Under the pieces are notes generated by a model. That model was not told the origin of the DNA. It saw only the letters and a list, made by a program, of their open reading frames with translations, and made no database searches. This document shows positions 4,680 through 25,592 of a stretch of 64,000 bases of DNA, in pieces. The translations under genes were made by a program, and so were the position numbers. Source of the stretch: Gammaproteobacteria bacterium. Lineage in GTDB: Bacteria; Pseudomonadota; Gammaproteobacteria; Pseudomonadales; Azotimanducaceae. The stretch lies in the NCBI GenBank assembly GCA_009841635.1, contig VXLJ01000009.1:18812-82811 (forward strand). Reading direction: 5' to 3'. Every line of letters begins with the position of its first letter. Positions within the stretch are counted from its first letter, which is position 1.

Positions 4680-5834
4680 CTAAGTAGCAGGCGTGGTTCG
4701 AAGCTCGCCGACTGGTGCGGGATTGTGAATGCTGATCCCCATCATATGGCGAAGCCTTGGGCTGAGTTTCTCGTAAACCTCGGTCGGTACATGCAGGTTT
4801 GCCGTGGATTGCTCGTGCAATGCGCGGACAAAGTGGCGGTTGTAATGACAACGCATGGCGTATCTCGTGCCTTCCGCGGTACGGCGTCCGCCGCCGTGTA
4901 GGACGCGTGTGTCCGTCAAGATACACGTACCAGGCGGGGCGCAAATTGCCACCAACCCTGGCTCGCCTTCAACGAGTCTCACCAAGTTCGCACCGTCATG
5001 AAAGCTCGTGGAACCATTCGCGGTTCGGTGCGAACCAGGCACGACGTATGTGGCACCGTTTTCTAAGTCAAATTCGGTGTAACACCAAATAATCAGCGAA
5101 CCAAACGGAAAGGGTGGGTAAGGCATGGGTATGCCACCTTGATCCACATGGAGCTCTTGCAAACCCCCGCCTTGGTGGACGATAGAGCCGTGCGCACAAC
5201 CGAGGCCAAAGCCTTCACCCATGATCTTCGTTAATAAGGTGTCGACCAGCTCGCCCCGTTGCGCTGCAGATGGTTTGAATTCGACCGCATCGCGAAATAC
5301 TTGACCTTTTAGCACCAGGTTGTTCACAAGCTGCGCACGTTCATTGCGACTCGTCATGATGGCGCTTTCGAGCTTACGCTCTTCGGCTGCTTGTTCGATA
5401 AGCCGGTCCACTTGCGCTTGCACTTGAGCTGGGGACATGGCATCTGCCACGAGACAGTAGCCCCAGCGCACGAAATCTCCCTCTAGTTGCGCCTGATCTG
5501 CGGACGGCTTCGGTAAATAGTCGAATTCACTGCTATTACGGATGAGTCCATCTTTCATGCGTTGTTTAGCAATGCCGCTCAGCTGACGCAAGAGCCTGCC
5601 TGCGGACAGGGCGCTGGTGGTCGAATGGTCGTCGGAATAGGTGATGCCATTGGCTATCGCCGCGTCCCAGTGAGCGTCAGTCGGATCAATCTGATGGCTA
5701 CGCAATTGCGCAAGCTCTGCTCTAAGTTGAGCGTTTTCTTCGCGCAGGGTTTCTAAGGATGCTGCAGTCGACGGGACGACCGGCAGCTCACCGGATGCGG
5801 ACGAAGCTAAATCCTGTTGGGGTTTCGTTGCCAT
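4680..5834 (-). CDS. Phytanoyl-CoA dioxygenase (PhyH) family protein with N-terminal coiled coil
   Basis: 384 residues. Residues about 28-47 form a short Leu/Glu heptad coiled coil (LETLREENAQLRAELAQL), which is unusual for this family and may mediate dimerisation. The dioxygenase part has the Fe(II)-binding triad His229-x-Asp231 (in LHVDQGG) and His313 (RVLHGGG), and an Arg about 11 residues on (GTRYAMR) to bind 2-oxoglutarate. PhyH enzymes hydroxylate activated methylene carbons of lipids, terpenoids or natural products using O2 and 2-oxoglutarate. It is divergently arranged to the broken SixA gene. This is one of four Fe/2OG-type dioxygenases in the left half of the window; the substrate is unknown. 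Confidence 0.88.
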   Translation of the reverse strand: MATKPQQDLASSASGELPVVPSTAASLETLREENAQLRAELAQLRSHQIDPTDAHWDAAIANGITYSDDHSTTSALSAGRLLRQLSGIAKQRMKDGLIRNSSEFDYLPKPSADQAQLEGDFVRWGYCLVADAMSPAQVQAQVDRLIEQAAEERKLESAIMTSRNERAQLVNNLVLKGQVFRDAVEFKPSAAQRGELVDTLLTKIMGEGFGLGCAHGSIVHQGGGLQELHVDQGGIPMPYPPFPFGSLIIWCYTEFDLENGATYVVPGSHRTANGSTSFHDGANLVRLVEGEPGLVAICAPPGTCILTDTRVLHGGGRRTAEGTRYAMRCHYNRHFVRALHEQSTANLHVPTEVYEKLSPRLRHMMGISIHNPAPVGELRTTPAT

Positions 5835-5998: not shown

Positions 5999-6496
5999 TT
6001 GAGCGATCGCAGGCTCTGGTTGATTCGGCATGCGAAGACGAAAGCAACGGGAGAGACGGACCACGAGCGTTAACTTTCACGACGTGGTTATCGCCAATGC
6101 GTGGAAATGGGGCGGTTTCTCGAAACTCTCGATTTTCCACCTGCGATTTTTCTAGCAAGCGATGCGCGTCGTACACAAACCACTGCACATGTGCTGAGCG
6201 CGTTCGTAGCAGGCAAAGTCAGTACTTTTCGAGCGATGTACACCTTTGGTGTTAATTCGCTGTGGCAGGCTGTTGGCGATGTGATTCTCTCTGGCATCTT
6301 GGACACCGAACATAGCGTGGCGGTGGTGGGTCACAACAGCGCGGTGTCAGATCTAGGGGTCGAGCTTGCGTGCCATCATGACGCGGGTTCATTGCCAACG
6401 CTCGGCATGGTCGAACTGACGTTCGCAGGTAACTGGGATGCGCTCTTGAAAGGTGAGCGCGTGTCATTAGCTCAACGTTTAGAACCGCAAGCGTGA
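5999..6496 (+). pseudogene. SixA-like phosphohistidine phosphatase interrupted by an in-frame TAA
   Basis: From the TTG at 5999, with AGGAG at 5988-5992 six bases upstream, the frame reads LWLIRHAKTK, the canonical catalytic RHAK motif of SixA, and runs to DHER. It then meets TAA at 6071-6073, exactly where the family has the Pro of RPLS. The same frame resumes as LSRRG and continues with the SixA-like ASDARRTQTTAHV and the second catalytic motif VVGHNS. Without the stop it would be a full-length protein of about 165 residues. Reinitiation at GTG 6101 would give a 131-residue fragment lacking the catalytic His. SixA removes phosphate from histidine-phosphotransfer domains. The choices are a recent pseudogene, readthrough, or a base-calling error. 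Confidence 0.75.
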
Positions 6497-7077
6497 GTGA
6501 TAACGTCGTAGACCCGTTGGTTCTGCTCGCAAGCGATCGATCCGTCGCTCGGGACCGGCAGGATCCGCTCGTGGACCGGTGTGTGTTGGGAACACTCACC
6601 CGAGAAGGGCGTGCGGCGTTGCGGACCTTGGTGTTGCGCGATATCGACGAACGACTCGCCATCTTCTATAGTCGCTCGAGCGCGAAACACCTCGAATTGA
6701 TGAATCACGATTGCCAAGCATCGTTGTTGGTTTGGCTACCGAGCATTGAGGTGCAGTATCGACTTGAAGCGCAATTTGAAGAAATGCCAAAGGTCGAAAT
6801 TGATGACCGTTGGCAGCTCAAGCCGAATGCCGCGAAACGCTTAGATGCGATTTACGAACGAAGTCCCCAAAGTACGCTCATTGAAGACGTCGAAAGGTTC
6901 GAGACACTATTTGCGGCAACCGTGCCGCCAGTGAGGGCACCCCACAACGCGACGGGTTGCTACATCAAGCCAATGCGGGTTGAAAGATTGGCATTGCGGA
7001 AAGATCCACACATGCACGATCGTCGCGCGTACACCCGCAACGGCGAATTTTGGACGATGCGAAGGCTGGTCCCTTAG
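6493..7077 (+). CDS. Pyridoxamine-phosphate-oxidase-like FMN-binding protein
   Basis: 194 residues beginning with GTG at 6493, whose last two bases overlap the TGA stop of the SixA-like frame, so translation is probably coupled. The sequence has the PNPOx split-barrel features: GTLTREGRAALRTLVLRDID, then FYSRSSAKHLELMNHDCQASLLVWL, an acidic helix KRLDAIYERSPQS, and a C-terminal GCYIKPMRVERLALR. This pattern resembles the Alr4036-type pyridoxamine 5'-phosphate oxidase-related family, which binds FMN. The reaction is unknown. The gene ends one base before the convergent stop of exporter half A1. Confidence 0.78.
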   Translation: MSDNVVDPLVLLASDRSVARDRQDPLVDRCVLGTLTREGRAALRTLVLRDIDERLAIFYSRSSAKHLELMNHDCQASLLVWLPSIEVQYRLEAQFEEMPKVEIDDRWQLKPNAAKRLDAIYERSPQSTLIEDVERFETLFAATVPPVRAPHNATGCYIKPMRVERLALRKDPHMHDRRAYTRNGEFWTMRRLVP

Positions 7078-7078
7078 G

Positions 7079-9124
7079 CTATTCGTTCGCCGCTACGGTT
7101 TGTAATTCCACAAACCTTCGGTACTGACCGCCGTCAATGGCCATAAGTTCGTCGTGGCTGCCTTGCTCCAGCACTTCACCTTGATCCAAAAACACGATGT
7201 AATCTGCTTGACGGATCGTGGAAAGACGATGCGCGATGATGACAACCAAGCGATCTTTCGCCGCTTCATGCAACGACTGCACAAGATACTGTTCTGTTTC
7301 CGGGTCTAGCGCCGACGTGGGTTCGTCCAAAATCAAGATCTTCGATTCGCGCAACAGGCCTCGTGCTATGGAGATGCGTTGCTTTTGACCGACCGATAGC
7401 TTGCTCATCGTGGTGCCGAGCTTCGTCTCATAACCTTCTGGCAAGCCGGCAATAAAGTCATGAATGCCTGCGACTTGGGCGACGCGAATGACCTCGTCCA
7501 AGCTAGCTTCTGGCTTGCCGTAACGAATGTTGTCCAGTATCGAAAACGAAAAGAGTTGAGTTTCCTGGAACACGTAAGTGATTTGGTCGCGCAAGCTTGC
7601 CAGCTCGAGCTCATTGACATCATGACCATCAATGAGCACCCGACCTTCGGTCGCCGCATGGTAGCGAGGTAGAAGATAGGCGAGGCTGGTTTTACCAGCA
7701 CCCGTAGGTCCTACAAAGGCAACGATTTGACCTAGCGATGCTGTAAATGACACATCGTTCAACGCCCGGCGTCCATCAGGATATTGCAACCCAACGTTTT
7801 GCAGTTCAACGCCACGTTCGATTGGGGGCAGCACGACGTTGCCGAGATCCTGCTCTTGGGGTAAATCCATGATGGCGAACACGCGCCGCATGCCCGCCAC
7901 GAAACTCTGGAGATGAATCCATAGTGAGGCGAAGCTATCCGCTGGACCGCGCATCCACCAGAAATAGAAGAAGATGGCGGCGTAATCGCCTGGCGATAGC
8001 GCACCGTCGATGATGTTCGTAGTGATCACGAAGAACACCGTAATGAAGATCGCCTGGAAGGCGAGTTCTTTACTCCGACCGATCAGGATGTCGAGCAGCA
8101 CCGTGCCGCGAAACCGTAGAAACGATTCTGAGCTGTCCGAGCCAAAGCGTTGGCGCTCATTTTTGTTGCCACCCAAACTTTGCACCGCCAGCATGTTGTC
8201 CATGCCTTCTTCGATGGTGCTGGTCACGATCGTACCGGCAGCCCGGCTTGCCTGATGGCGCCGTCGTACGAAACGTGAAAATGGGATCGAAATCAGGAAA
8301 TACGCCGGGAATAGCGAACCAGTTAACCAAATCACGGAGTCGACATGCTGGTACGCGCTCACCAGATTGAACATGGCTGCGACGAACACCGCCGTGGACA
8401 TGGTCGGCCGATTAATAACTTCATAAAAAATCTGGTTAATCGAAGGCGCGTCGTACATGACCCGATACACGGAATCCCCGATTCTTTGATCGTCGAGCAG
8501 CGTCATTGGGATGGCTTTGATCCGCTCGAATAGCTTGGATCGAACCATGTGATTCACGGTCTGGGTTAGCCGTGAATTCATCTTGTATTCGTAGTAGCCC
8601 CAGATACCACCTGCAAAACTATGGCCGCCGTGGGTGAGGTTTTCTTGGCGAGTCGCAGTGTCTTGCCCTTCAATCATGCCACCATCGGTGGTGTCATTAG
8701 CGCCGCCGGGCGCATAGCCCCCTACTAATACGATGAGGAACACCGAAATGATCGTGAGCGTGATCAGGATTTCGAGGGAGCTCACCGTCATAAAGTGATT
8801 GATCAATGGATGGAGCCAAATCGGGTAGCCGTCGGTGCTTTCGATGGGGGCGTTGAGCACGACATGATCGACGATGATCTTGGCGCCCCACGGCAACACG
8901 AAGACTGGATACATGAGCGCGCCGAATAGCAGTACCCACTTGATGAGGAATCGACCCCAGACGTAATTGATGATCATCCAGCCACGTGCAATGACCTTCA
9001 CCGTGTCGATGAAGCCAAGATCCCAATCCGAATCCAAGATGCTCGCGCGTTTGCTTAGCTCACGTTCAGCCTCGACATTGAATCCGCCTGGCTTGCGAAC
9101 GCTGTTTTCAGTCGGTTCGCTCAT
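7079..9124 (-). CDS. ABC exporter half A1 (TMD-NBD)
   Basis: 681 residues: a six-helix exporter transmembrane domain, then a nucleotide-binding domain. Walker A GPTGAGKT is at about 472-479, signature LSVGQ at 576-580, Walker B ILILDE near 596-601, and the H-loop His near 632. Residues 153-176 carry the A-type segment GQDTATRQEN...GGIWG, and 210-221 LDDQRIGDSVYR with MYDAPSI following. Its start overlaps the stop of half B1 by 4 bases (ATGA), so the two halves almost certainly form a heterodimer. Walker B is followed by Glu, so this half can complete a hydrolytic site. It is the last gene of a six-gene minus-strand series starting with a TonB receptor. The substrate is unknown. Confidence 0.92.
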   Translation of the reverse strand: MSEPTENSVRKPGGFNVEAERELSKRASILDSDWDLGFIDTVKVIARGWMIINYVWGRFLIKWVLLFGALMYPVFVLPWGAKIIVDHVVLNAPIESTDGYPIWLHPLINHFMTVSSLEILITLTIISVFLIVLVGGYAPGGANDTTDGGMIEGQDTATRQENLTHGGHSFAGGIWGYYEYKMNSRLTQTVNHMVRSKLFERIKAIPMTLLDDQRIGDSVYRVMYDAPSINQIFYEVINRPTMSTAVFVAAMFNLVSAYQHVDSVIWLTGSLFPAYFLISIPFSRFVRRRHQASRAAGTIVTSTIEEGMDNMLAVQSLGGNKNERQRFGSDSSESFLRFRGTVLLDILIGRSKELAFQAIFITVFFVITTNIIDGALSPGDYAAIFFYFWWMRGPADSFASLWIHLQSFVAGMRRVFAIMDLPQEQDLGNVVLPPIERGVELQNVGLQYPDGRRALNDVSFTASLGQIVAFVGPTGAGKTSLAYLLPRYHAATEGRVLIDGHDVNELELASLRDQITYVFQETQLFSFSILDNIRYGKPEASLDEVIRVAQVAGIHDFIAGLPEGYETKLGTTMSKLSVGQKQRISIARGLLRESKILILDEPTSALDPETEQYLVQSLHEAAKDRLVVIIAHRLSTIRQADYIVFLDQGEVLEQGSHDELMAIDGGQYRRFVELQTVAANE

Positions 9125-11658
9125 GTCGCTGCGGCTCCTGCGAGATCTGATTCCGTTTCGACAAAGGTCCGATAACGACCATTCGGGATTTGCATGAGGC
9201 TGGTGTGGTCGCCGCTTTCGTAAATGCGTCCGTCGTCGAGATACAGGATGTTGTCAGCGCGCCGAATCGTTGAAATTCGATGCGTGATAAGAAAAATGGC
9301 TCGTTGTTCACCCCACTGAGCAAGATTGGTCATGACTCTATGTTCAGTGTCCGCGTCCAACGCGGCGGTTGGTTCGTCCAGAATGAGAATCGGGGTGTCG
9401 CGGACGACTGCCCGAGCGATGGATAGCCGTTGCTTTTGGCCTGTCGACAACTTGCCGCCGCGGTCGCCAAGGATTGTGTCCAAGCCTTGCGGCAGGCTAT
9501 TGACGTAATCGTCCATACACGCGACTTTGATCGCCGTAGCGACTTGTTGGTCTGTCGCGTCGGGCGCGACATATCTGATGTTGTCGCGAATCGATAGGGC
9601 GAATAAGACGTTTTCTTGCAGCGCGATGGCAGTCTTTGCGCGCAGGCTGTCGACCGTGTAGTCGCGCAAATCGCTACCGTCGATGGTGATCGACCCTTGG
9701 GTTGGGTCATAAAGCCGGAGCAATAACCCCATCATGGTGCTCTTGCCGGAACCGGTTGGGCCTACGATGGCCGTGATCGAGCCAACCGAGCTCTTGAAAT
9801 CGACGGCACTCAGCACGGGTCTGTCATCGGTATAGCTAAATGCGACGTTTTTAAATTCGATGTCGCGTTTGAAGCGATCCAACGGTTGGGCATTGGGAGA
9901 GTCTTTCACATCTGGTTCGATGTCAAGGATGTCGAACACGCGCTGCAGACCCATGGCCATGTCCTGGGATGCAAGCCATTGCCGCATGATGTGGCGTACG
10001 TTGTTGGTCGTTTCGTGAAAACGGTCCCGCCCCCAATTGAAAGCGCCGAGCGTCCAGATGGTGAAGCTGAGACCGATGACGGCAATGAGTTCTTTTGCGA
10101 ACGCCTCATTGCCCTGATTTGCGTAAATCGCCATGGCGAATTCGCCTGTAAGGAGGATGCCGCCGGCGATGGTGAACATCAAAATCGTCACCAATGCGAT
10201 CATGAGCCGCACTTGGAATGCCGCATTGAAAGCGACGACGGAATCTTCTTCCATCTCTTGCTGCACGCGGTCTTCGACTCGATAAGCCTTGATCAATCGA
10301 ATCGCTGCGAATGACTCTTGAATGCGCGAGGTGATATCACTGGTCGCGGCGCGATACACCAAGCTGCGCGTCCGCATTCGCGGCATAGCCCAGCGTGATA
10401 GCAGAATGGCGGGAATAACGATGGTGACCGCGATCAGACCGATCGTAGGACTTAAAAACGACACGAGCACCGCGGCCAGAAAGTAACGCCATACCCCAAT
10501 GGAGCAAGTGACGAGCTGCCCGATCACCGCTGTGACCTGAGCGCTGTCTTGGTAAATTCGATATATCGAATCACCAGTGCGATGGTCGCTGTGATAGCTC
10601 AGCGACAGTTGATGCCAGCGTTCGACCAGGGCAAGACGCAAGTCTTGATTGATGCGTTGCATGATCCAAACGTGGTAGTAAGGTCGACTTATTTCGAATG
10701 GAAGCATCAATAGCCATAAACCGATCATGAGCCAGATGTACCACCACTTGATCACGTGGCGTTGCTCGGCGGACAAGGTTTCAGCCACGCCCCGCGCCCA
10801 TGCATCCTGTCCGAAAAACTCCGCGACGGCCGGCATGAGCGGGTCGCTTAAGAGGATGGATTGCGAAAGCATGTCCGTCATGACCAAGGCCATGGCGATT
10901 TCGATAAAGCCTTGAATGCCGAGTAGCAAATAGAAGTACGCCAAGTGGGCGTGCAGGCGAAAGCGATACTTGAACCGCTTGAATAGTGATGTGGATTCGC
11001 TCTTCGCATCCGTGGTTCGAACTTGCAACATCCAACCTAGCAGGACGACAACCGTGATGGCCGCCATCCACAGGTTGTCAAGAAAACCGTCGACAGCGAG
11101 CACGGCAAGCAAATTAGCGACGAAAACAGCGAAGGTGAGCACGATCACTGCTGTGCCTTGAATCCTGGCTTGACCGCTCGTAGCTGCTAGCAGCCAAAGC
11201 GTTGCAAGAATCGCGGCGACGCTAATGTAGAGGAATGGCGCCGGGTAATCAAGATTTGGCGGTGCCCAGCCGCTGAGCGGACCCAATGCCACCAATACTG
11301 TCGCCAGAATCGGCGCATACCAATAGTGGTAGCCATGGCTTGAAACGTTGTCGGCGATGACCGTATCGGTGCCGCGTTCTGGGTAGTACCACCGGCCTAG
11401 TAATTGAATGCGAATAAAGGGCCACGAACGCAAAAAAAGCTTGAGGATCGCGGTAAATGTATGCCGATCCTCACTGACATCGCGATCGCGTTCGGATGGG
11501 ATGGTGCCATTGCCGATGAATGGGAGCGCTCGCGACCGGCGCGTGTCGCCGGGATCCTTGTCCGCGTTGATCGTGCGCAACCCAATGAAATAGGTCACGA
11601 TGGGAATCGTGAACGCGATAACAAACGTGGCGATGGCCACGAGCATGAAAGGATTCAT
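9121..11658 (-). CDS. ABC exporter half B1 with extra N-terminal membrane block
   Basis: 845 residues, about 160-200 longer than B2 and B3. Residues 3-27 form an extra TM helix. After the elbow-like LRSWPFIR (about 77-83) there is an inserted block with four more predicted helices (about 113-130, 141-160, 168-190, 197-212) before the normal exporter TM1 near 238. The rest is standard: a segment GDSIYRIYQDSA, Walker A GPTGSGKS (633-640), signature LSTGQ (737-741), Walker B ILILDE near 757-762, H-loop THR near 793. It pairs with A1 downstream. The hydratase gene ends 23 bases upstream. The added helices may recruit a partner or shape substrate access; that is inference. Confidence 0.92.
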   Translation of the reverse strand: MNPFMLVAIATFVIAFTIPIVTYFIGLRTINADKDPGDTRRSRALPFIGNGTIPSERDRDVSEDRHTFTAILKLFLRSWPFIRIQLLGRWYYPERGTDTVIADNVSSHGYHYWYAPILATVLVALGPLSGWAPPNLDYPAPFLYISVAAILATLWLLAATSGQARIQGTAVIVLTFAVFVANLLAVLAVDGFLDNLWMAAITVVVLLGWMLQVRTTDAKSESTSLFKRFKYRFRLHAHLAYFYLLLGIQGFIEIAMALVMTDMLSQSILLSDPLMPAVAEFFGQDAWARGVAETLSAEQRHVIKWWYIWLMIGLWLLMLPFEISRPYYHVWIMQRINQDLRLALVERWHQLSLSYHSDHRTGDSIYRIYQDSAQVTAVIGQLVTCSIGVWRYFLAAVLVSFLSPTIGLIAVTIVIPAILLSRWAMPRMRTRSLVYRAATSDITSRIQESFAAIRLIKAYRVEDRVQQEMEEDSVVAFNAAFQVRLMIALVTILMFTIAGGILLTGEFAMAIYANQGNEAFAKELIAVIGLSFTIWTLGAFNWGRDRFHETTNNVRHIMRQWLASQDMAMGLQRVFDILDIEPDVKDSPNAQPLDRFKRDIEFKNVAFSYTDDRPVLSAVDFKSSVGSITAIVGPTGSGKSTMMGLLLRLYDPTQGSITIDGSDLRDYTVDSLRAKTAIALQENVLFALSIRDNIRYVAPDATDQQVATAIKVACMDDYVNSLPQGLDTILGDRGGKLSTGQKQRLSIARAVVRDTPILILDEPTAALDADTEHRVMTNLAQWGEQRAIFLITHRISTIRRADNILYLDDGRIYESGDHTSLMQIPNGRYRTFVETESDLAGAAAT

Positions 11659-11661
11659 GCG

Positions 11662-11680
11662 GCGCTCTTACTCTGAGCGC
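11662..11680 (-). promoter_or_regulatory. Hairpin over the B1 translation-start region
   Basis: A perfect 6-bp stem GCGCTC/GAGCGC with a 7-base loop fills the 23-base gap between the hydratase stop and the B1 ATG (11656-11658). There is no T-tract. It could limit ribosome access to B1 or protect an mRNA end, setting the ratio of enzyme to exporter. Confidence 0.3.
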
Positions 11681-11681
11681 G

Positions 11682-12494
11682 TTATGCTACTTGTAGCTTA
11701 TCGTTTACGTTGCAACAGATAGGAGCTAAACCACCAAGCGATACTTCGATCTGGGTGGCTTTAGCAATGGGGAAAACTTCTGCAGCGGAGCCGCAGAGCA
11801 CGGTCGCGCGAGTTGCAGGAGATGGCCTAGAACTGTTTTTAGGCAATTCACAACGCAACCACGCCAACGAGTTTAGGATGATGTGGCGCAGCTCCTGAGG
11901 CAACACTTCCGCGACTTGCTTGCCGTCCAGGCTGATAGTTAGAGGCTCTTGAAGCTCACACAATGGCACGCTTTCGTCAGCTACGACGAAGCCCGCATGT
12001 ACAGCGTTATTTGCGATGAGCACCGATGCTTGCAGCTGCGCACGGGGAATGGCAAAGTGATGCAGTTCGATCACAGGTTGAACGTTTTGAATCACCTTTT
12101 CCAGTGCTTGTGAAGAGCTAGGCAAGTCCCTTGGATCAACCGCAAGCCGCACGGCTAGTTCGCCTTCAATGGCTAAACCCGCGAAATGTCTGAGCTCGAC
12201 GGTCGCTGGGTGTGAAAGTTCGTGCTGCGCAAACAATCGACCCCAGATAGGGGTTTGGATACCGACTTGCGCTTGTATACGAGGTGACGTGCAACCGACC
12301 TTGTAACCGATGGGTCGCTCCCCCCGCGCGATTCGCAGCTCTGCAACACGTTGCTGTAGGACGTAGGAATCCGCGATGGCAACGTCGAGAAACGGACTTG
12401 AAATTAATCGAGGAGGCTTTTCATCCTGCGCGGCTAGCACGTCGGTGGCGCATTGAGTGAGATCCAATGCCACGAAATTGTCAGCTCGCGACAC
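11682..12494 (-). CDS. 2-keto-4-pentenoate hydratase-like (FAH superfamily) enzyme
   Basis: 270 residues with the MhpD/FAH-superfamily pattern: RPIGYKVGCTSPRIQAQVG, then WGRLF, and the metal-site region with the acidic AIEGELAVRL, followed by VQPVIELHHF and LIANNAVHAGFVV. Family members (MhpD, HsaE/TesE, and related decarboxylases) hydrate or decarboxylate 2-keto-enoates at the end of meta-cleavage pathways, using Mg2+ or Mn2+. The start overlaps the CMD gene by 14 bases and the gene is followed 23 bases later by exporter half B1. No extradiol dioxygenase or aldolase for a classical meta-cleavage pathway is nearby, so here the enzyme may act on another keto acid. Confidence 0.8.
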   Translation of the reverse strand: MSRADNFVALDLTQCATDVLAAQDEKPPRLISSPFLDVAIADSYVLQQRVAELRIARGERPIGYKVGCTSPRIQAQVGIQTPIWGRLFAQHELSHPATVELRHFAGLAIEGELAVRLAVDPRDLPSSSQALEKVIQNVQPVIELHHFAIPRAQLQASVLIANNAVHAGFVVADESVPLCELQEPLTISLDGKQVAEVLPQELRHIILNSLAWLRCELPKNSSRPSPATRATVLCGSAAEVFPIAKATQIEVSLGGLAPICCNVNDKLQVA

Positions 12495-12792
12495 CTATTT
12501 CACACTCAGCGCCACTACAAGCTTCTTCGAGACCATTGCGTTTGACGCCTTCAATCGCGGTGCGCATGGTGACGCCCGCATTGACGGCTGCCGCTAGATC
12601 CAAGGCCGCGCGAATGGTTTCGTATTCAATACCCTCATCGAGTGCACCTTCGATTCGACCACCGGTGCATGCGATGCAACCACGTGTAACCGTCACCGCC
12701 AAACCGACTAGATGCTTTTCGCGTTCGGTTAAGGCGTTGGTTGCGCCAGTGGCATCCAGTGCTTCTTTGACTTTGAAATCCGTCGCTTCCAT
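12481..12792 (-). CDS. Carboxymuconolactone decarboxylase/AhpD-like protein
   Basis: 103 residues, all-helical CMD/AhpD fold. It carries TEREKHLVGLAVTVTRGC followed by the redox-type motif CIAC and a His-less continuation TGGRIEGALDEGI, then ALDLAAAVNAG. AhpD-like proteins with CxxC act as small thiol peroxidase or disulfide partners; CMD enzymes open lactones. The CIAC motif favours the AhpD-like redox side. Its gene lies 56 bases after the PhyH-HEAT gene and overlaps the hydratase start, so it belongs to the same transcription unit. The partner is not evident from sequence. Confidence 0.82.
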   Translation of the reverse strand: MEATDFKVKEALDATGATNALTEREKHLVGLAVTVTRGCIACTGGRIEGALDEGIEYETIRAALDLAAAVNAGVTMRTAIEGVKRNGLEEACSGAECEIGVAS

Positions 12793-12848
12793 GTGTTGTT
12801 CCTAGTTGGGAATGATTGGTTGTGTAGGTGAGTGTGAAGAGGCGCTGA

Positions 12849-14480
12849 TTAGCCAGCGCGTTCTTTGGGTGGTTCGAACGAAAAGGCATCCCAGCGGCGC
12901 GGTTGCAGATACTGCACGGCTGCTTTAAGACCACGTGTGGTCCCTAGCGTTTCAAGACCCTGACAAAGGACCGCAGGTGTGTAGCCAGATTCATATTGCA
13001 ATGCTGCCACCATCACATCTTCGAGCTCAGCGGGTGGGTTAGGTGCAGTTGCGCGAGCTCTTAGTGCCCACGCCAACGCATATCTAGTTTGATTTTCGAT
13101 GGTCCACCGACCACCTAGATTCGGTTCGCCCATCGCCGCCATCTGCCAATCTTCACGAGATTGCGTGAGTAGATGCCGTATGCGTTGCAATGTCGCTGCC
13201 CCGTAGGGCACCCAGCACAACGCGTCCGCAGTGGCACGCACTACCTGATGCAGCTCGTCCGCAAGCAGTGAACCCGCCAAGTCCGCGTCGCTGGGTGAAA
13301 CTGCGTCACCTAGTTCACCCATCGCGTACACGGCATTGATCCGAATCCACGGATCGTCGTGGTGAAGGAGCTGTTTTAGAACGCCTAAACTCGGTCCGCC
13401 AATCGCCCCCAATGCGATTGCAGCGTCTTCCGGTACGAATTGCCGTTGGGAATATCGTCGCTGCAATGGGTCAGGGGACATGGCATAGTAGCCGGGGTCG
13501 TTTTGTGCCGGTGAAATATGGCGATCTTGCCCAGCGGTGGACAACAATTTGCTGACGAGGGGTTCGACTGCTATTTCACCCTTGCGCACGAGGTCATACA
13601 AGGCACCTAACCTCGTTTCGTTATCAGCGCTATCCATCGCCGCTAGTAAATCTGGCATTGATACCGACGAGCAGTCAGACTGGTCTGGCTTCATAGCGTC
13701 GCCACGTAACCAATCCCATAACGTCTCCCAAGCTTGCGGGATGTTTGTTGGGCTAAGTAAGTCTTGCGGGGCGCTCCAGCTGGGGTCCTGGCAATGCCAA
13801 CTTGGCCTTTGAGGTTGACGCATGCGCAGGGCGACAAACTTCAGCATGTAGCGAGTCTGTGCGGTGCGATTGGGCGTCCCGGCGTGGCCCAAGTCGAAAT
13901 CGGCAACGATGACGGTGCCTGCTTCGAGCGGCTGGTGAAACACTTGCGAAGCCTTGGCGTCGCGAAGCGTCGCATAGAGGTGCGAGCCGCCTAAAACACG
14001 CGTGGGTCCCATTTCGAGCGGCACATCGTGCGGGAAATAGAACACGTTAATCGCTTTGAAGGTATGCCAACGACTTCGCGCGGCCTTGGAATGCCCGTCT
14101 TGATGCCAACCCGAACCGGAGATTGAACCTTTGCCCATGACCGGCTGATTTTCAAAAGGATCGAAGTCCGTTACGTCATTCGGATCATCAAGGGGTTCAC
14201 TGTTATGTGGGAAACGATGGGGTGCCCACGCAAACTCTGGACCTAACAAACTCCGCAACGCGCCTACGACGCAAGGGCTCTTAAGCACCTTGTCGAGCGA
14301 AGGCACGCGAGGGAGTAGGTTATCGCCAAGCCATTTCGATTCGTTTTTTAGACTGAAATGCAGTTCTCGCGTAATTTCTTCATTGACTGAGGCAGGCACT
14401 TCTGCGTGTAGCACAATGAATCCGTCCGCAATAAAACGGCGGACCAATTCATCGCTAAGCAGCTGTGGCCTAGTATTCAT
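12849..14480 (-). CDS. PhyH dioxygenase fused to HEAT-like repeats
   Basis: 543 residues from the ATG at 14480. An upstream in-frame ATG at 14543 would overlap the TonB receptor gene by 32 bases and only adds a poorly ordered leader. Residues about 1-225 are a PhyH Fe(II)/2-oxoglutarate dioxygenase: His126-x-Asp128 in GWHQDG, distal His199 in DLGHAG, and Arg near 210 in QTRYMLKF. From about residue 265 to 520 there are HEAT/PBS-type helical repeats, for example AAIALGAIGGPSLGVLKQLL and WIRINAVYAMGELGD. Repeats of this kind usually bind a protein or a carrier. The gene lies 31 bases after the TonB receptor on the same strand. The substrate is unknown. Confidence 0.85.
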   Translation of the reverse strand: MNTRPQLLSDELVRRFIADGFIVLHAEVPASVNEEITRELHFSLKNESKWLGDNLLPRVPSLDKVLKSPCVVGALRSLLGPEFAWAPHRFPHNSEPLDDPNDVTDFDPFENQPVMGKGSISGSGWHQDGHSKAARSRWHTFKAINVFYFPHDVPLEMGPTRVLGGSHLYATLRDAKASQVFHQPLEAGTVIVADFDLGHAGTPNRTAQTRYMLKFVALRMRQPQRPSWHCQDPSWSAPQDLLSPTNIPQAWETLWDWLRGDAMKPDQSDCSSVSMPDLLAAMDSADNETRLGALYDLVRKGEIAVEPLVSKLLSTAGQDRHISPAQNDPGYYAMSPDPLQRRYSQRQFVPEDAAIALGAIGGPSLGVLKQLLHHDDPWIRINAVYAMGELGDAVSPSDADLAGSLLADELHQVVRATADALCWVPYGAATLQRIRHLLTQSREDWQMAAMGEPNLGGRWTIENQTRYALAWALRARATAPNPPAELEDVMVAALQYESGYTPAVLCQGLETLGTTRGLKAAVQYLQPRRWDAFSFEPPKERAG

Positions 14481-14511
14481 TTTTGGCAGGCTGTCAGTTT
14501 TCGGAGCTTGG

Positions 14512-17100
14512 TTAGTAGTCCCAGCTCCAAACAACGCCAGCAAACCTTGGATCGGTCAGGGTGGCGTCTTGATAGTAACCAGCATCCCAACCGTTTGATT
14601 CCAATTCCATGATGCCAATGTCGTTCAAGACATTTTCAACAAACGCTGACACGGACATTTTGCGATTGGCACTCCGCCAGCCTACCATCGCATCGAAGCG
14701 GCCGTACGAATCGAGCCGATCATTCGGGATATTGAAGATTCGATTGAATCGTTCACCGGTGAACGAGTATGTGACACCCCAATTGATGGTTGCGCCGCTA
14801 TTCAACATTCGTTGCCAGTCCGCTGACACAGACCATTTATTACGCGGCATATTGGGGAGTTCATTGCCTTTAAGCGCGAACTGTTCCCCTACCACACCCA
14901 TTCTTGTTAAGCCGGTTACAGGATCCGTGTAGCTGACGGTTTCAAACCGCTGGTTGGGATTCACCGGGTCTGATGAATAGACTTCGCCCAGCCGCGAGTT
15001 TTGCAGGGCGTAGTAGCCTCGAAGGGAAAAATTGTCGGTCACGATCCAAGTGCCTTCAATTTCGACACCTGTCAAGGACGTATCGGGCAAATTGTCGATG
15101 ACGAAAAGATCATAGATAAATGGTGAGAACTGTCGTACAAGAATCGGTTGCTGGTAGTTTTCGAAGTTGTACACGAACCCTGAAACCAGCATGCGCAACT
15201 TATCGTTGAACATGTCGGCTTTGTAACCGAGTTCAAGCGATAGCAAATCCTCGTCGTCGTAGGAGTCGTATTCGTCTGGTGCGCCAGGCGTGATGCCACC
15301 CGCTCGATAACCTGTAGCTACGCGACCATATAGCAAACGATCTTCGTCAGGCGAGTGCTCAAGCGAAACGTTCCAAGTCAGCTTTTGGAATTCTTCTTTT
15401 TGACCAGGATTGATTTCGTTGAAACGGGCCGGAATAACGAAGTCGTCTAGTGGATTCTCTTCCTCGAAATCGATAACTGCCCAAAGCGAATCTGTAAGAA
15501 CCTCTTTTTCATCATTGGTATAGCGAAGCCCAGCTGTCAATTGCCATTGGTCGTGTAACGAGAAACTCGTTTGCCCGTAGAACGCATAGGAATCCACGGT
15601 ACGTTCGTTAATGACGTCGATGAACTGATGCGAACCATCGGCCACATGCGAGTTGATGAAAACCCCTGGATTGCTCTCGTCAGGATAAAAAACGTCTGAG
15701 CCGAATATGAACTGTAGTGGAACGGCATCCGCGCTACTGACGTTCGCCGCCCGATTGGCGATATTGAACAATTTGTACTCGTTGTAAATTTCCTGGTCGA
15801 AGAGATATGCGCCCGCTAACGTCGAAACGTTGCCACTATCGAAAGTCAGTTGAAATTCGTGGGTTGTTAGTCGCACGTCAAATTTCGCTCGGATCGTGCA
15901 ATCATTGAAAGGACGACCAGCGGTTTCGGATAGGTAAGGGTCCTCTGCACTGCCACGAACACTTGACCCGTCACAATCTTGGTCTAGCAAACCAAATGCT
16001 AGATCAGAGGTGCCGAGGATGTACTTACCGGTCAAATTCTCAGAAAAGTCGTAACTGGCATGGATTGAAACGGCATCTCGCAGTACATCCGTGGTACCAC
16101 CGTTGTTCATATCAATGACGTTTTTGAGGTCGTCTGAGCCGTCTTTCGCCGGTGGGTAGATGCGAGGATAGAGATAGAACTGATTGCGTTCTTCACTAGG
16201 GCTGCCATCTTCCGGGTTGATATGGAACTCAACCCCTGTGTTGGGGTAGCGCACTGGCACCCGCAGTTCACTTGCTGAATCTTGTTCAAAACGCGCATAG
16301 CGAATATTCACGTCGATCGGACCGTCGGCATAGCGCAGTTGCGGCGCAATGTTGTAGTCGCCTCGACCACCCATATCAGGTCCGGATATGTTCTCCTGAT
16401 TGCCTTCTGCTTCTTGCCACTCTGCAGTTAAACGCAGCGCAATGGCGTCCGATAAAGGTTGATTGACAAAGCCATTGAGACGCCTGCCGTTAAACATGGC
16501 AACTTCTGCTAATACACCGACGTCAAACGCGCTTGGATCGGGTCGCTTATTTACGTAGTTGATCGCTCCTGCGATGGAATTTCTCCCATACAACGTGCCT
16601 TGCGGACCACGCAACACTTCAACGCGTTCCATGTCGTACAACGAACTTACGACGCCGTACGGCTCGTCAAAATACAGGTCGTTCGAGTATTGAGCGACGG
16701 CGACGTCACCCCCGACACCTCTATAGAGCGAGCCTATGCCGCGAATGGTGGCAGGGCTGTCGAGACCAAATTGCAAGCCAGGTACGCGCACTTCTAAATC
16801 TTTCAGGTTCGTCACCTGATAGTGCTCAAGCGTTTCCGCATCGAAGCTAGTCACTGAAACCGGTACTTCTAGGATTGATCGCTCTAAGCGTTCAGCCGTA
16901 ACAGTTACTTCTTCAAGTGCAAAGTCACCGGATTCCTCTTCATGTTCTTCGGCTAGCGCGGAACCTTGGATCGCGACTAAGAGAAATAATGTATTTACAC
17001 AGAGTGCGCGTATAGCAAGTTTTGAAAACAACTGGGTGAACCTAAAGCTGAAAAATGATGGTGAATTTGACAATTCTACAGTGAAAATTGTTCGACCCAC
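14512..17100 (-). CDS. TonB-dependent outer-membrane receptor 1
   Basis: 862 residues. A long N-terminal leader contains the hydrophobic signal core near residues 30-48, ending SALA-EE; a start at an internal TTG would shorten it. The TonB-box-like EEVTVTAER follows, then a plug domain (ATIRGIGS, FDEPYG, VEVLRGPQGTLYGRNSIAGA) and a 22-strand barrel ending in an aromatic residue (WSWDY). Such receptors import bulky ligands (iron chelates, cobalamin, glycans, lipids or terpenoid-like compounds) with energy from TonB-ExbBD. It is first in a minus-strand series with PhyH-HEAT, CMD, hydratase and the B1/A1 exporter. The ligand is unknown. The AT-rich upstream region probably holds its promoter. 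Confidence 0.93.
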   Translation of the reverse strand: MGRTIFTVELSNSPSFFSFRFTQLFSKLAIRALCVNTLFLLVAIQGSALAEEHEEESGDFALEEVTVTAERLERSILEVPVSVTSFDAETLEHYQVTNLKDLEVRVPGLQFGLDSPATIRGIGSLYRGVGGDVAVAQYSNDLYFDEPYGVVSSLYDMERVEVLRGPQGTLYGRNSIAGAINYVNKRPDPSAFDVGVLAEVAMFNGRRLNGFVNQPLSDAIALRLTAEWQEAEGNQENISGPDMGGRGDYNIAPQLRYADGPIDVNIRYARFEQDSASELRVPVRYPNTGVEFHINPEDGSPSEERNQFYLYPRIYPPAKDGSDDLKNVIDMNNGGTTDVLRDAVSIHASYDFSENLTGKYILGTSDLAFGLLDQDCDGSSVRGSAEDPYLSETAGRPFNDCTIRAKFDVRLTTHEFQLTFDSGNVSTLAGAYLFDQEIYNEYKLFNIANRAANVSSADAVPLQFIFGSDVFYPDESNPGVFINSHVADGSHQFIDVINERTVDSYAFYGQTSFSLHDQWQLTAGLRYTNDEKEVLTDSLWAVIDFEEENPLDDFVIPARFNEINPGQKEEFQKLTWNVSLEHSPDEDRLLYGRVATGYRAGGITPGAPDEYDSYDDEDLLSLELGYKADMFNDKLRMLVSGFVYNFENYQQPILVRQFSPFIYDLFVIDNLPDTSLTGVEIEGTWIVTDNFSLRGYYALQNSRLGEVYSSDPVNPNQRFETVSYTDPVTGLTRMGVVGEQFALKGNELPNMPRNKWSVSADWQRMLNSGATINWGVTYSFTGERFNRIFNIPNDRLDSYGRFDAMVGWRSANRKMSVSAFVENVLNDIGIMELESNGWDAGYYQDATLTDPRFAGVVWSWDY

Positions 17101-17449
17101 AGTAAGGGTTACAGCGAAATTAGACCTATAGATGTAACTTCCTGAGTGTTGTGAGTCTATCTATTAGATAGTAAAGATCATTCTTCGAAGTCCTTCGTTA
17201 AGACAAAGGTTTCAAGAATCGAATACGTTCGACATCAAAGCTAAATATGAGTACGGTAGGCGGTGATGCAAGTTAGAATTTATACAAGAACCGTAATTTC
17301 GGACTACAAGAAAATGAGTAATTTTTTCAAGTGTAAAAATTTACTCACGCTTAAGCGCTACTACTCATTATTCATACAAATGTTACTTTTTGCCAATTAA
17401 AAAACAGATAAAGAAAAAATCTAATTATCAGCCGATTGTTATCGGAGAT
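17101..17449. other. AT-rich non-coding region upstream of TonB receptor 1
   Basis: About 350 bases without a credible gene and clearly AT-richer than the surroundings. It holds the likely promoter of TonB receptor 1, a 6-bp hairpin CTATCT/AGATAG at 17157-17171, the long inverted repeat at 17316-17346, and a hairpin CCGAT/ATCGG at 17432-17445 just past the stop of the exonuclease gene. The last is followed by a T-rich stretch on the minus strand and may be a weak terminator. Confidence 0.5.
17316..17346. repeat. AT-rich inverted repeat
   Basis: GAGTAATTTTTT (17316-17327) faces AAAAATTTACTC (17335-17346), complementary apart from one mismatch, with a 7-base spacer. Either strand would form a stem ending in runs of A/T, so it could be a bidirectional terminator or an operator. 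Confidence 0.4.
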
Positions 17450-21184: not shown

Positions 21185-23197
21185 TCAGTCTTCTAGTTGC
21201 TCAATCGTCTGTAAATTAACGTATTCGGCGTACTTTTGATCGAGTTCTATTAATTCGCTGTGGCTTCCTTGTTCCACAACATGACCGTCTTCCAGAAACA
21301 GGATTAAGTCGGCGGTTTGAATGGTTGACAAACGGTGCGCAATGATGAACACCATGCGGTTACTTTTAGCGACGTCGAGGGATTGAATCAACGCTTGTTC
21401 CGTCGCTGGGTCGAGAGCGGCGGTAGGCTCGTCCAATATCAGTATTGGCGAGTCGCAGATTAGCGCTCGAGCGATGCTTAGTCGTTGCTTTTGACCGACT
21501 GATAGGTTGGCACCATTGGCACCCAACATGGTGTCCTTGCCTTGAGGCAAATCATCGATAAATTCACTTACGCCACTCAATTCGAAAGCTCGTTGCACAC
21601 TTTCGGCGTTTGCCTTGGGATTCCCTAACGCTGCATTTTCGAGCACTGTTTGCGAAAACATCGTGTGTTCTTGAAAGACATGGGTGACATGCCGTCGTAA
21701 GTCGCCAATGTCGTATTCGGTAAGGGGGCGATCGTTAAGTCGAATCGTGCCACTGTTAGGCTCAAGAAATCGAGGGAGCATGTAGACGAGCGTGGTTTTA
21801 CCCGCGCCAGTTGGGCCCACAAGTGCGATGGTCTGTCCTGCTTCCGCTGAAAAACTCGCCGCCGCGAGTGCCGGTTCGGCATCGCCGTAGTTGAAGCCAA
21901 CGTCTTGAAACTCGATCTTCTCCAATCTTGTAGGAAATGGTGTATTGCCAGAGAGCGTGTCGTCGCTGGGCAAATCAAGATAGAAAAGGACGCGTCGAAC
22001 CCCAGCGACGTTGTGCTGCAAGTCGATCCAGAGTCGCCCGAACGTTATCGACGTACCAGCGATCGTGCCGAATAGCGCGAACATGACCACCATGTCGCCG
22101 GGCAACAGTTCGCCTTGAATGATCCGCTGGGAGACCAGGAGCACCATCCACAGCCACATGAGTGCGAGGGCACCACCGGCAGTCAATGTATCTATGCCAA
22201 TATTGACCAAGACAACTCGACGAAAGCGACGAAATGATTCGCGGCTTGCCTCTGCAAAGTTCTTTCGTTCTCGATTCCCAGCACCATGACTTTGCACCGC
22301 TGCGATATTGCTCATGTTTTCTTCGATGCGATTGGTGGTCGCTGTACCCGCACCACGACTTTGTTGGCTTGCTCGACGGGCATATTGCACGAGCGGCACG
22401 GTAAATAACAGCGACAACGGCATGGTGGCCAAGCCCAACCAGACCAATTCGGGAATGGTGGCGCCGTAGCTGTACTCCATGACGGCTAAGGCTGTGAACG
22501 CGCCAAGCAACGCAATAACAGGCATCAGCGTAATGTCGAAGCAAACGCCTTGGATCGCGGGTGCGTCGTACATTGTTCGATACACGCTATCGCCAATTCG
22601 CTGATCGTCAAGCGTGCGCATGGGTAGGCGGAGCAACCTCTCAAAAAGGTCAGTTCGCAATAAATTGGTGACACGTTGCACAAGGCGGATATTGCAAAGT
22701 AAGTCGCCGAATCCCCATATGCCGCCGCTCATCGACCAGCCTGCACTGATCATGTTTTCCGATTGGGTCGCGGTGTCTTCACCTTGAGCCATAAATGCGA
22801 AGTGACCCTCCCCACCGCCCGCACCCGCGCCAAAAAGCACGACCAGGACCACCAGAAAAGCGAGCGTCGCGAGCAGTAACGAAAGCGGGTCAAGTCCGGT
22901 CGTTGCATCGACGAATGGTTGGATATACGGTGGGAACTGCGCCGCCGACGCGTCATACGGATTACCCAAAATGACATAGTCAGCCAAGATCTTTAGCACC
23001 CAAGTCGTGACCAATGCTGGGACGAAGCTGCCTAGCATCAGAAAGAACTTAAGGATGAAGAGATTGCGTGCCGGCCAAATGTAACTCAATGCGCGCTTGA
23101 GAATGACCATGACCTCGCGTGTATTAAGGTCTGTGTCCAGATCGATACGATCGTCAAAACGCTCCGGCGTTGAACCGTGTTGGGAGGCGAGGGTCAT
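21185..23197 (-). CDS. ABC exporter half A2 (TMD-NBD)
   Basis: 670 residues, the same architecture as A1 and A3. It shares the N-terminal FDDRIDL..DL.T.E leader with A3, so these two are closer relatives. A-type landmarks: GEDTATQSEN (139-148), GGIWG (158-162), TLDDQRIGDSVYR and MYDAPAI; then Walker A GPTGAGKT, signature LSVGQ, Walker B ILILDE, H-loop AHRLSTI. Its likely partner is B2 (25593-27536), but two opposite-strand dioxygenase genes lie between them, unlike the directly adjacent pairs B1/A1 and B3/A3. It is divergent from the PhyH gene at 23340. A 5-bp hairpin AAACG/CGTTT (21145-21157) follows its stop. Confidence 0.91.
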   Translation of the reverse strand: MTLASQHGSTPERFDDRIDLDTDLNTREVMVILKRALSYIWPARNLFILKFFLMLGSFVPALVTTWVLKILADYVILGNPYDASAAQFPPYIQPFVDATTGLDPLSLLLATLAFLVVLVVLFGAGAGGGEGHFAFMAQGEDTATQSENMISAGWSMSGGIWGFGDLLCNIRLVQRVTNLLRTDLFERLLRLPMRTLDDQRIGDSVYRTMYDAPAIQGVCFDITLMPVIALLGAFTALAVMEYSYGATIPELVWLGLATMPLSLLFTVPLVQYARRASQQSRGAGTATTNRIEENMSNIAAVQSHGAGNRERKNFAEASRESFRRFRRVVLVNIGIDTLTAGGALALMWLWMVLLVSQRIIQGELLPGDMVVMFALFGTIAGTSITFGRLWIDLQHNVAGVRRVLFYLDLPSDDTLSGNTPFPTRLEKIEFQDVGFNYGDAEPALAAASFSAEAGQTIALVGPTGAGKTTLVYMLPRFLEPNSGTIRLNDRPLTEYDIGDLRRHVTHVFQEHTMFSQTVLENAALGNPKANAESVQRAFELSGVSEFIDDLPQGKDTMLGANGANLSVGQKQRLSIARALICDSPILILDEPTAALDPATEQALIQSLDVAKSNRMVFIIAHRLSTIQTADLILFLEDGHVVEQGSHSELIELDQKYAEYVNLQTIEQLED

Positions 23198-23281
23198 TAG
23201 ATCGTCTTGGACAGCTCTTTGCTAGTGCAAGTCAGTTGGACAGGCTGTAAAAGGATATTGTGGTGTACGCCGCATTAACAT

Positions 23282-23293
23282 TTCATGCATGAA
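23282..23293. promoter_or_regulatory. 12-bp palindrome between divergent A2 and PhyH genes
   Basis: TTCATGCATGAA is a perfect palindrome in the 142-base divergent region, 46 bases before the PhyH start. It is a plausible operator controlling both directions; no regulator is assigned. Confidence 0.35.
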
Positions 23294-23339
23294 TGAACCC
23301 GCAATGTTCAAAGCTCGAAACCGCCTGTACGTGATCTAA

Positions 23340-24413
23340 ATGGTTGGGTTATCCACCGACTTAATGCCATTTCTGGATGAGGCAGTAGCAAGTTGCGACG
23401 CGCTAACGCGAGCGGAAGCGCTGCACTTCGTTGAGCATGGCCACGTTATCGTCAAAAACGCAATGCCTAAAGCGCACGCCGAGCTTGTCAGGGAACGTGC
23501 CTGGAGCGAGCTGGAAACTGAGCACGGTGTCGATCGATCCAACCCTTCTACTTGGGCTAAACCTCAACCAGGTCGACGACCGGCCGGCTATGCACGGCTG
23601 AAAGGCACTGCACAACGCTACCTGCTAAAGACGACTGCACCGCGCGCGTTCAAAGCGCAAGCCGATCTTGTGGGCGGAGCAGCACGCTTGTCTGCCGACG
23701 GCGACGAAGTGTTTTGGGGCGATGGTGTCATTAGCAACCTGGGGATCGAAGATGATCCGAGATGGGAACCGCCTGGACCGAAACAGCCTGGCTGGCATAA
23801 AGATGGCTGGCATTTTCGACACTTCTTGAACTCACCAGAACAATCCTTGGTAACCGTGCCTCTGTATAGCGATATCCAACCCCGCAGCGGCGGCACGTAT
23901 CTTGCCGTCGATTCCATCGCCCCCGTAGCAAGGTTGCTGCGAGACACGCCGCAAGGCTTGCATCCAGATAGTGTGCAAGGCGCAGGCTTCCTGATCCCAG
24001 GACTTATTGAGCAATGCACCAACTTCGTCGAATTGACTGGCGAGGCTGGCGATGTCGCCTTTTTGCACCCTTACATGATGCATCGAGTTAGCATCAATGC
24101 TTCCACTCGACCTCGATTCATCGCGAACATGGCACCAGTTTTGAAAGAACCTATGTGCTTTAAACGACCGCAAGGCGAGGCATATTCGTTGGTTGAATTG
24201 GCGGTTTTGCATGCCTTGTCAGAACCTAGCTACGACTTTCAGCAAACAAGAGATATGCAGGGATTTAAGCCTTTTCCATTTCGCGAAGAGGGTGAGCGCG
24301 AAGCACAGCAAGCGTTGTTGCGTAACGAAATGCGCTCGTTTGCTGAACGCGGCATCGTGACGCCTGCATGGTCGGCCGAATGTGGGTATATGACCAACCA
24401 GGCGTACGCCTGA
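23340..24413 (+). CDS. PhyH-family Fe(II)/2-oxoglutarate dioxygenase
   Basis: 357 residues. The jelly-roll core has His153-x-Asp155 in GWHKDGWH, the distal His248 in FLHPYMMHRV, and Arg257/Arg259 in STRPRF for 2-oxoglutarate. The sequence between the two halves, LVTVPLYSDIQPRSGGTYLAVDS, follows the PhyH pattern. It differs clearly in length and flanks from the other two PhyH proteins in the window, so these are not simple recent duplicates. It is followed on the same strand by the CmcJ/NvfI-like gene and the two together separate exporter halves A2 and B2. The substrate is unknown. Confidence 0.88.
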   Translation: MVGLSTDLMPFLDEAVASCDALTRAEALHFVEHGHVIVKNAMPKAHAELVRERAWSELETEHGVDRSNPSTWAKPQPGRRPAGYARLKGTAQRYLLKTTAPRAFKAQADLVGGAARLSADGDEVFWGDGVISNLGIEDDPRWEPPGPKQPGWHKDGWHFRHFLNSPEQSLVTVPLYSDIQPRSGGTYLAVDSIAPVARLLRDTPQGLHPDSVQGAGFLIPGLIEQCTNFVELTGEAGDVAFLHPYMMHRVSINASTRPRFIANMAPVLKEPMCFKRPQGEAYSLVELAVLHALSEPSYDFQQTRDMQGFKPFPFREEGEREAQQALLRNEMRSFAERGIVTPAWSAECGYMTNQAYA

Positions 24414-24596: not shown

Positions 24597-25583
24597 TTGT
24601 TCGACCCTCTAAAACCCCTCGATTCACCGGCCTCGTTCGAATCGAATATGCACTTTGCCAATGCATTGCATCGGGGTTATCGAGTACCTAATCAGTATTC
24701 GGTTAAAGATCCCGCGGAACTTAAAACAACGGGTCAAACACACCGCGTCACGGTCCATAACGCTAGGTTGCTGGACCCCGCGCCGACATTGGATTCACAT
24801 GGCTTTCAGTTGGTGCATGCACCATGCGATTTGGACTTGATGGACACCGAGGTCGTAACCAGCGCTTACTACGAGCATTGTCGCGAAGTCGTGCAGCAAA
24901 TCACGGGTTGCTTTGAAGTGCGCGGTGGCGGTCATGAATATCGCAATGGGTTCGGTGGTCAAAGCGGCGAACGAGGCATCAAACCAACGCCAAACGGTAG
25001 CGGTGGTGGCTACGGCATGGGCATTCACTCTGACATGTGCGCAGCTGTCGAAGATGCTTTTGCAAAGATCGTCCCGGATGAACGTCACTTCCAAAGCTTG
25101 AATATTTGGCGAAGCGTTAAGCGAGGGGAGTTGGTGTTTACTGCGCCCCTTGGCATGTGCGACATGCGTTCCGTCGATCCCGCTGACATCGTGTTCGGCG
25201 ATGGCACAGCAACCGGCAACATCAAACAGTATTACAAGGTCGTAGACCAACGGGTCGTGTTTTCACCTTCGCAACGCTGGTACTGCTTTCCCAACATGAC
25301 AGAAGACGAAGTGTTGGTGTTTCGCCAGTACGACACCCGACAAGAACCGCTTAATCTAAGGACTGTTTTCCATAGTGCGGTCGTGGATCCAAACACACCC
25401 GATGACGCGCCGATGCGCTATACCATCGAAGTGCGCATGCAGGCCATCTTCGAAAAAGAAACGGACAAACCAGCTCGAACGGCACACTTTAAAGCGCAAA
25501 TCACGGATGTTTACCGTGATGGGACCAAGAGCGATTGGTGGCGCGGTCCGATTGAAAACTATGTGCCGCCTGCCGACGCGTAA
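24597..25583 (+). CDS. CmcJ/NvfI-family oxidoreductase
   Basis: 328 residues from a TTG at 24597; an ATG at 24648 gives 311 and neither has a clear ribosome binding site. The family signature is well preserved: NIWRSVKRGELVFTAPL, RWYCFPNMTEDEVLVFRQYDT, TVFHSAVVDP and MRYTIEVRM. A His144-x-Asp146 pair in GIHSDM and His259 probably bind iron. This superfamily includes CmcJ of cephamycin 7-alpha-methoxylation, NvfI, and fungal AsaB-like enzymes, often in natural-product tailoring. It is rarely discussed beside ABC exporters. Its stop lies 9 bases from the convergent stop of B2. A stretch of 183 bases separates it from the PhyH gene. Confidence 0.82.
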   Translation: MFDPLKPLDSPASFESNMHFANALHRGYRVPNQYSVKDPAELKTTGQTHRVTVHNARLLDPAPTLDSHGFQLVHAPCDLDLMDTEVVTSAYYEHCREVVQQITGCFEVRGGGHEYRNGFGGQSGERGIKPTPNGSGGGYGMGIHSDMCAAVEDAFAKIVPDERHFQSLNIWRSVKRGELVFTAPLGMCDMRSVDPADIVFGDGTATGNIKQYYKVVDQRVVFSPSQRWYCFPNMTEDEVLVFRQYDTRQEPLNLRTVFHSAVVDPNTPDDAPMRYTIEVRMQAIFEKETDKPARTAHFKAQITDVYRDGTKSDWWRGPIENYVPPADA

Positions 25584-25592
25584 AAAAGTGAT

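Follow-up and report, generated by a model that had tools for sequence, protein, structure and literature searches.

A TonB receptor, PhyH-HEAT oxygenase and ABC transporter gene set as a candidate transport-and-processing operon in gammaproteobacteria

Described systems and the layout of the locus

Two described uptake systems combine a TonB-dependent receptor with an ABC importer of the exporter fold: FyuA with YbtPQ, for yersiniabactin (PMC10967856), and a TonB receptor with PchHI, for pyochelin (PMC10846271). The locus analyzed here resembles both in the pairing of such a receptor with a heterodimeric ABC transporter of the type IV fold, presumably for one ligand. It differs from them in having no detectable sequence match to the YbtPQ membrane domains, in the lack of any recognized chelator synthesis gene, and in the presence of a keto-acid hydratase and an Fe(II)/2-oxoglutarate (2OG) oxygenase. 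The exporters MsbA, TM287/288 and TmrAB share with the ABC pair of this locus the fold, the domain order, the NBD motifs and the closest membrane-domain sequences, while an insertion splitting TM2 of the A subunit, a hydrophobic N-terminal extension of the B subunit, and the linkage to TonB and oxygenase genes set the present pair apart.

The enzymes of the locus also have characterized relatives. The PhyH tailoring oxygenases FtmOx1, SptF, KanJ and SnoK have the same double-stranded beta-helix core, HxD...H triad and 2OG-binding Arg as the oxygenase considered here (PhyH-HEAT), but the identity does not exceed approximately 20%, and the C-terminal half of PhyH-HEAT consists of HEAT repeats. 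Similarly, the 2-keto-4-pentenoate hydratases MhpD and HpcG share with the hydratase of the locus the metal-ligand ExE with a later Glu and the Lys of KxGxTS, while the latter scores far under the equivalog cut-offs and is not adjoined by the usual meta-cleavage genes. A literature search for the combination of TonB, PhyH-HEAT and ABC genes yielded no matching description, in agreement with the preliminary description of this DNA, which had recognized no described system of this kind.

Table 1. Features of the candidate operon and its neighbourhood; positions refer to the window, that is, the whole analyzed stretch of 64,000 nucleotides
Feature	Position	Strand	Size	Basis or remark
TonB-dependent outer-membrane receptor	14512..17100	-	862 aa	ORF; true start possibly internal
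PhyH-type Fe(II)/2OG oxygenase with C-terminal HEAT repeats (PhyH-HEAT)	12849..14480	-	543 aa	Pfam PhyH and HEAT_2
Small CMD-family protein with CxxC, optional member	12481..12792	-	103 aa	CMD, 5.5e-9
MhpD/FAH-fold 2-keto-acid hydratase-like enzyme, fast-evolving	11682..12494	-	270 aa	dmpE model, 4e-17
Type IV ABC half-transporter B	9121..11658	-	845 aa	ABC_membrane and ABC_tran
Type IV ABC half-transporter A, TM2 with conserved insertion	7079..9124	-	681 aa	ABC_membrane and ABC_tran
Second PhyH protein	4680..5834	-		Downstream of the operon in relatives; 70% identity in L105
Promoter-like site TTGGCA-18-AATAAT	17367..17396	-		Consensus match only; region as a whole not above chance
ABC half-transporter A, second pair	21185..23197	-		Same clade as operon ABC-A in distant MAGs
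PhyH-like protein between the halves of the second pair	23340..24413	+		Motif only (GWHKDGW, HPYMMHR); no Pfam match
CmcJ/NvfI-family oxidoreductase	24597..25583	+		NF041278, 160 bits (cut-off 80)
ABC half-transporter B, second pair	25593..27536	-		ABC half-transporter

The six co-directional ORFs of the minus strand in window positions 7079-17100 follow in the order TonB receptor, PhyH-HEAT, CMD, hydratase, ABC-B, ABC-A (Table 1). The junction spacings given earlier (31, 56, -14, 23 and -4 bases in the gene order) proved exact when the ATG at 14480 was taken as the start of PhyH-HEAT. In particular, 31 bases separate the TonB stop (14512) from this ATG, 56 bases the PhyH-HEAT stop (12849) from the CMD ATG (12792), and 23 bases the hydratase stop (11682) from the ABC-B ATG (11658), while the CMD stop (12481) overlaps the hydratase GTG (12494) by 14 bases, and the ABC-B stop overlaps the ABC-A ATG (9124) by 4 bases.

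Promoter and terminator scans of the region 6400-17600 were compared with shuffled sequence, and the number of sites, which are consensus matches and not evidence of transcription, did not exceed that in the shuffled sequence. No terminator-like or promoter-like site was found in the minus-strand junctions of this region, which agrees with the earlier remark that no strong terminator is visible. The only minus-strand promoter-like site ahead of a gene, at 17396-17367, lies approximately 270 bases before the TonB start, and two further ones are inside the TonB gene. The tight co-directional spacing and the conservation of the genes as a set (see below) suggest an operon-like unit, as had been proposed.

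Components of the gene set

The protein families were assigned with Pfam and NCBIfam models. The Plug (PF07715, 2.1e-14) and beta-barrel (PF00593, 1.2e-29) domains of the TonB receptor were both identified by Pfam HMMs above the cut-off. Its orthologs show 57-74% identity in four relatives from the same genus and approximately 53% in distant MAGs. In one of the relatives, G009, the TonB gene (L038:5208-7784) contains an in-frame TAG and is possibly interrupted there.

In PhyH-HEAT, the oxygenase domain (PF05721, 5e-9) scores 37.2 bits, the cut-off being 22, and HEAT_2 is matched at 2.9e-12. The iron triad (H126-x-D128 and H199) and the 2OG-binding R210 are invariant in 19 homologs. The AlphaFold model (pLDDT 81.7) consists of two halves, the oxygenase being rich in strands and the HEAT part helical, and the PhyH part of this predicted structure is nearest to FtmOx1, SptF and KanJ, with approximately 190 residues aligned and Z about 15 for FtmOx1. 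The comparison of the PhyH-HEAT profile with PDB sequences retrieved for the most part generic HEAT proteins and designed alphaRep proteins, the PhyH matches (DhiD and ThoJ) being weak, and it suggested no function.

The CMD protein matches PF02627 with 36.3 bits (cut-off 23), and its CxxC is CIAC. In AhpD, the peroxidase motif consists of this CxxC followed by the active-site His (CxxCxxxH). In the present protein the position of this His is occupied by Arg46, the same being true for the other known copy, so the peroxidase role was rejected and the "AhpD" label of the preliminary description, apt with respect to CxxC, is wrong in detail. Within the genus, CMD is present only in this genome and G004, directly after PhyH-HEAT in both, and, judging by the loci compared, it is the least fixed part of the gene set.

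The hydratase has no Pfam match. It matches the 2-oxopent-4-enoate hydratase (dmpE) model at 4e-17, though its 62.5 bits are far below the cut-off of 408.8, so that the equivalog level is not reached. Alignment to the solved MhpD and homologs (the solved relatives are MhpD and HpcG) shows that the residues KxGxTS, ExE and IE (with the metal-ligand Glu) are retained. The protein shares 42-47% identity with its counterparts in genus relatives, compared with 80-92% for the adjacent ABC genes, the catalytic motifs being kept.

Both ABC chains contain ABC_membrane and ABC_tran domains with intact Walker A, signature, Walker B Glu and H-loop, which places them in the type IV ABC class, and both sites look catalytically intact by these motifs. 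ABC-B proteins of the 9121 clade are extended at the N-terminus by approximately 215 residues, which include several predicted membrane or hydrophobic segments; the 25593 type (647 aa) lacks this extension. The insertion in ABC-A, of approximately 35-40 residues, is common to nearly all A subunits compared (window positions 7079-9124, 21185-23197 and 37000-39036, and loci L095-L134), L125 being without it; its consensus is QGxDxATxxEN, followed by Ser and GG.

Recurrence of the gene set and its neighbourhood

Absence of the set from all related genomes, which had been named as the outcome speaking against an operon, was not observed, and several of these genomes carry it. Within the genus, the order TonB, PhyH-HEAT, hydratase, ABC-B, ABC-A, without CMD, is found in G001, G009, G016 and G017, and G004 has TonB, PhyH-HEAT and CMD. 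G015 carries only the hydratase and the ABC pair, with no TonB or PhyH-HEAT orthologs, and hence the unit is separable. At the threshold used, no PhyH-HEAT homolog was found in eight genomes of the genus, and three more have only a distant paralog.

The conserved neighbourhood extends beyond the six genes. The second ABC pair (21185-27536) is split by two plus-strand genes encoding the PhyH-like and the CmcJ/NvfI-family proteins, of which the former (23340..24413) belongs to the neighbourhood in G009, G016 and G017 as well. In the same three genomes, an ABC-A gene of the 21185 type is situated immediately upstream of the TonB gene, while the window has an exonuclease gene and a CrtO-like gene in between. 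Since this ABC-A adjoins TonB in these relatives, the conserved neighbourhood is nearer to 7079-27536 than to 7079-17100. The second PhyH protein (4680-5834) is encoded near the operon in all carriers from the genus. In total, 35 kb of the window (positions 7079-41109) contain three heterodimeric ABC pairs that belong to one family. The CrtO-like protein (18858-20429) is an FAD oxidoreductase that scores under the equivalog cut-off; farther on, at 52691-53779, the window encodes a CrtC-family protein.

Because conservation within the genus extends to the flanking genes, the same-genus synteny is weak evidence when taken alone, and the genes might be adjacent due to general synteny or shared ancestry, not forming one pathway. 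The separation of two halves of the set in G015 and the irregular occurrence of CMD and the hydratase among loci are in line with this explanation. However, it has to be set against the distant genomes. Among the 19 named loci found with PhyH-HEAT, L093, L094 and L104 from distant gammaproteobacteria contain TonB, PhyH-HEAT, hydratase, ABC-B and ABC-A, so that the hydratase is situated between PhyH-HEAT and ABC-B both in the genus and in this distant lineage. The order TonB, PhyH-HEAT, ABC-B, ABC-A without the hydratase is observed in L095-L098 (L096 is cut by the contig end). In L099 and L105 the ABC pair is ahead of PhyH-HEAT, with TonB between them in L105, and the hydratase is missing from both. 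At L100-L103 and L106, which hold more distant PhyH-HEAT homologs (43-54% identity, some on short contigs), the gene set was not seen.

The flanks of L093-L098 and L104, as well as of the reordered L099 and L105, differ from those of the present locus, while the core is retained. Moreover, the same slot is filled by paralogous ABC pairs, of the 9121/7079 clade in the genus and of the 25593/21185 clade in the distant MAGs. A constant slot with a changing occupant matches the prediction for a functional link, and this sequence pattern argues for functional linkage. General synteny or common ancestry as the whole explanation therefore seems very improbable to us, and the gene set, whose order recurs in distant genomes, is, on this comparison, a real conserved unit beyond chance.

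Direction of transport and possible function

The core of the unit (the TonB receptor, PhyH-HEAT and the heterodimeric ABC transporter) is kept together across separate lineages despite the change of paralogs, which points to functional linkage. The reading that we tentatively prefer, at somewhat less than an even chance, is that of an operon for transport and processing, conserved in sponge-type gammaproteobacteria and combining uptake, oxidation, a hydratase step and putative export. The ligand, a small organic molecule or metal complex in scarce supply, would cross the outer membrane through the TonB receptor. In the cytosol it would be oxidised by PhyH-HEAT, which would use Fe(II), O2 and 2OG, its HEAT tail possibly serving as a docking or substrate-presenting scaffold, and the hydratase-like enzyme could add or remove water or cleave the resulting keto acid. 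The ABC pair would then move the product or a harmful intermediate outward across the inner membrane. The "complete import-modify-export pathway" of the preliminary description is plausible from the gene content, but unproven as a complete one: CMD is missing at most homologous loci and the hydratase at some, and, the ABC pair apart, no importer of the inner membrane is encoded in the gene set.

The latter observation bears on the direction of transport. If the ABC pair were an exporter-fold importer, the missing inner-membrane step would be supplied: the ligand would pass through the TonB receptor into the periplasm and through the ABC pair into the cytosol, to be degraded or relieved of its metal there by PhyH-HEAT and the hydratase, with no export step. 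TonB-linked importers of this fold are known (FyuA with YbtPQ, PMC10967856; PchHI, PMC10846271), and the fold of the pair matches YbtPQ (Z 30.3) and IrtAB (Z 29.9). However, all type IV exporters match equally well, exporters and exporter-fold importers alike falling at Z 29-31, and the fold was therefore rejected as an indicator of direction. By sequence, the closest solved matches of the membrane domains are the exporters MsbA, TM287/288 (TM288), TmrAB and Sav1866, while no match to YbtPQ or IrtAB was found at E up to 1; this similarity serves only as a lead towards the outward direction.

Genome-wide context also bears on import. In the 2.9-Mb genome, about 22 TonB receptors and nine such ABC pairs are encoded, and TonB genes are enriched beside the pairs (within 5 kb of four of the nine, 0.85 being expected; p 0.007), an enrichment that counts in favour of both the preferred operon and import. 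The remaining five pairs have no TonB gene within this distance, which speaks against import. On balance, inward transport by the ABC pair is considered rather unlikely. Another cluster of an ABC pair and TonB in the same genome adjoins genes for an ArsP-like permease (L111:3326-4615) and a ZIP transporter (L111:2040-2999).

Receptor plus exporter is a common layout of siderophore loci. Accordingly, in one more alternative the oxygenases (PhyH-HEAT, the PhyH-like and the CmcJ/NvfI-like proteins) would modify a chelator or signal destined for secretion, with the ABC pair as its exporter, and the TonB receptor would recover the loaded form. Four oxygenase-type genes within about 20 kb fit this scheme, as does the modeled PhyH fold being closest to the natural-product tailoring enzymes FtmOx1, SptF and KanJ. 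Still, the window proteins scanned included no recognizable NRPS, PKS, terpene cyclase or siderophore synthetase, and the structural match covers only approximately 190 residues and gives no substrate, so that a make-and-retrieve cycle appears improbable. An arsenosugar-type role, suggested by a match to TIGR04169, was rejected, as the score was only 33.5 bits at the cut-off of 120.

The genome that carries the present locus contains 63 PhyH matches, of which 62 are above the cut-off. In the genus (G000, G001-G017), ten genomes contain 45-86 PhyH candidates and eight contain 0-4, and all operon carriers in the genus belong to the PhyH-rich group. PhyH genes near the ABC pairs are not significantly enriched (p 0.16; nine pairs, one genome), and such enrichment was rejected.

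Several records of carriers bear the isolate codes COS, IRC and RHO, which would correspond to the sponges Coscinoderma, Ircinia and Rhopaloeides (PMC8163846), and thus the carriers are probably mostly sponge-associated. In Poribacteria, the PhyH family is described as hugely expanded in sponge symbionts, its function being mostly unassigned (PMC3909097). The present genome is similar in having a large and diverse PhyH family in a probable sponge symbiont, but it belongs to a different phylum, and the available part of that source describes no TonB-PhyH-ABC operon (PMC3909097).

It is conceivable, though doubtful at present, that the locus represents a previously undescribed class of TonB and type IV ABC systems built around PhyH-HEAT, with A subunits marked by the TM2 insertion QGxDxATxxEN. 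Such a class would have expanded within a single sponge-symbiont lineage alongside dozens of PhyH genes, and the operon would handle a metabolite, made by the host or the symbiont, that is of central importance to their association. By tying a PhyH enzyme to a receptor and a transporter, a conserved operon offers a practical route to the PhyH substrate, and expressing the six genes makes the substrate question testable.
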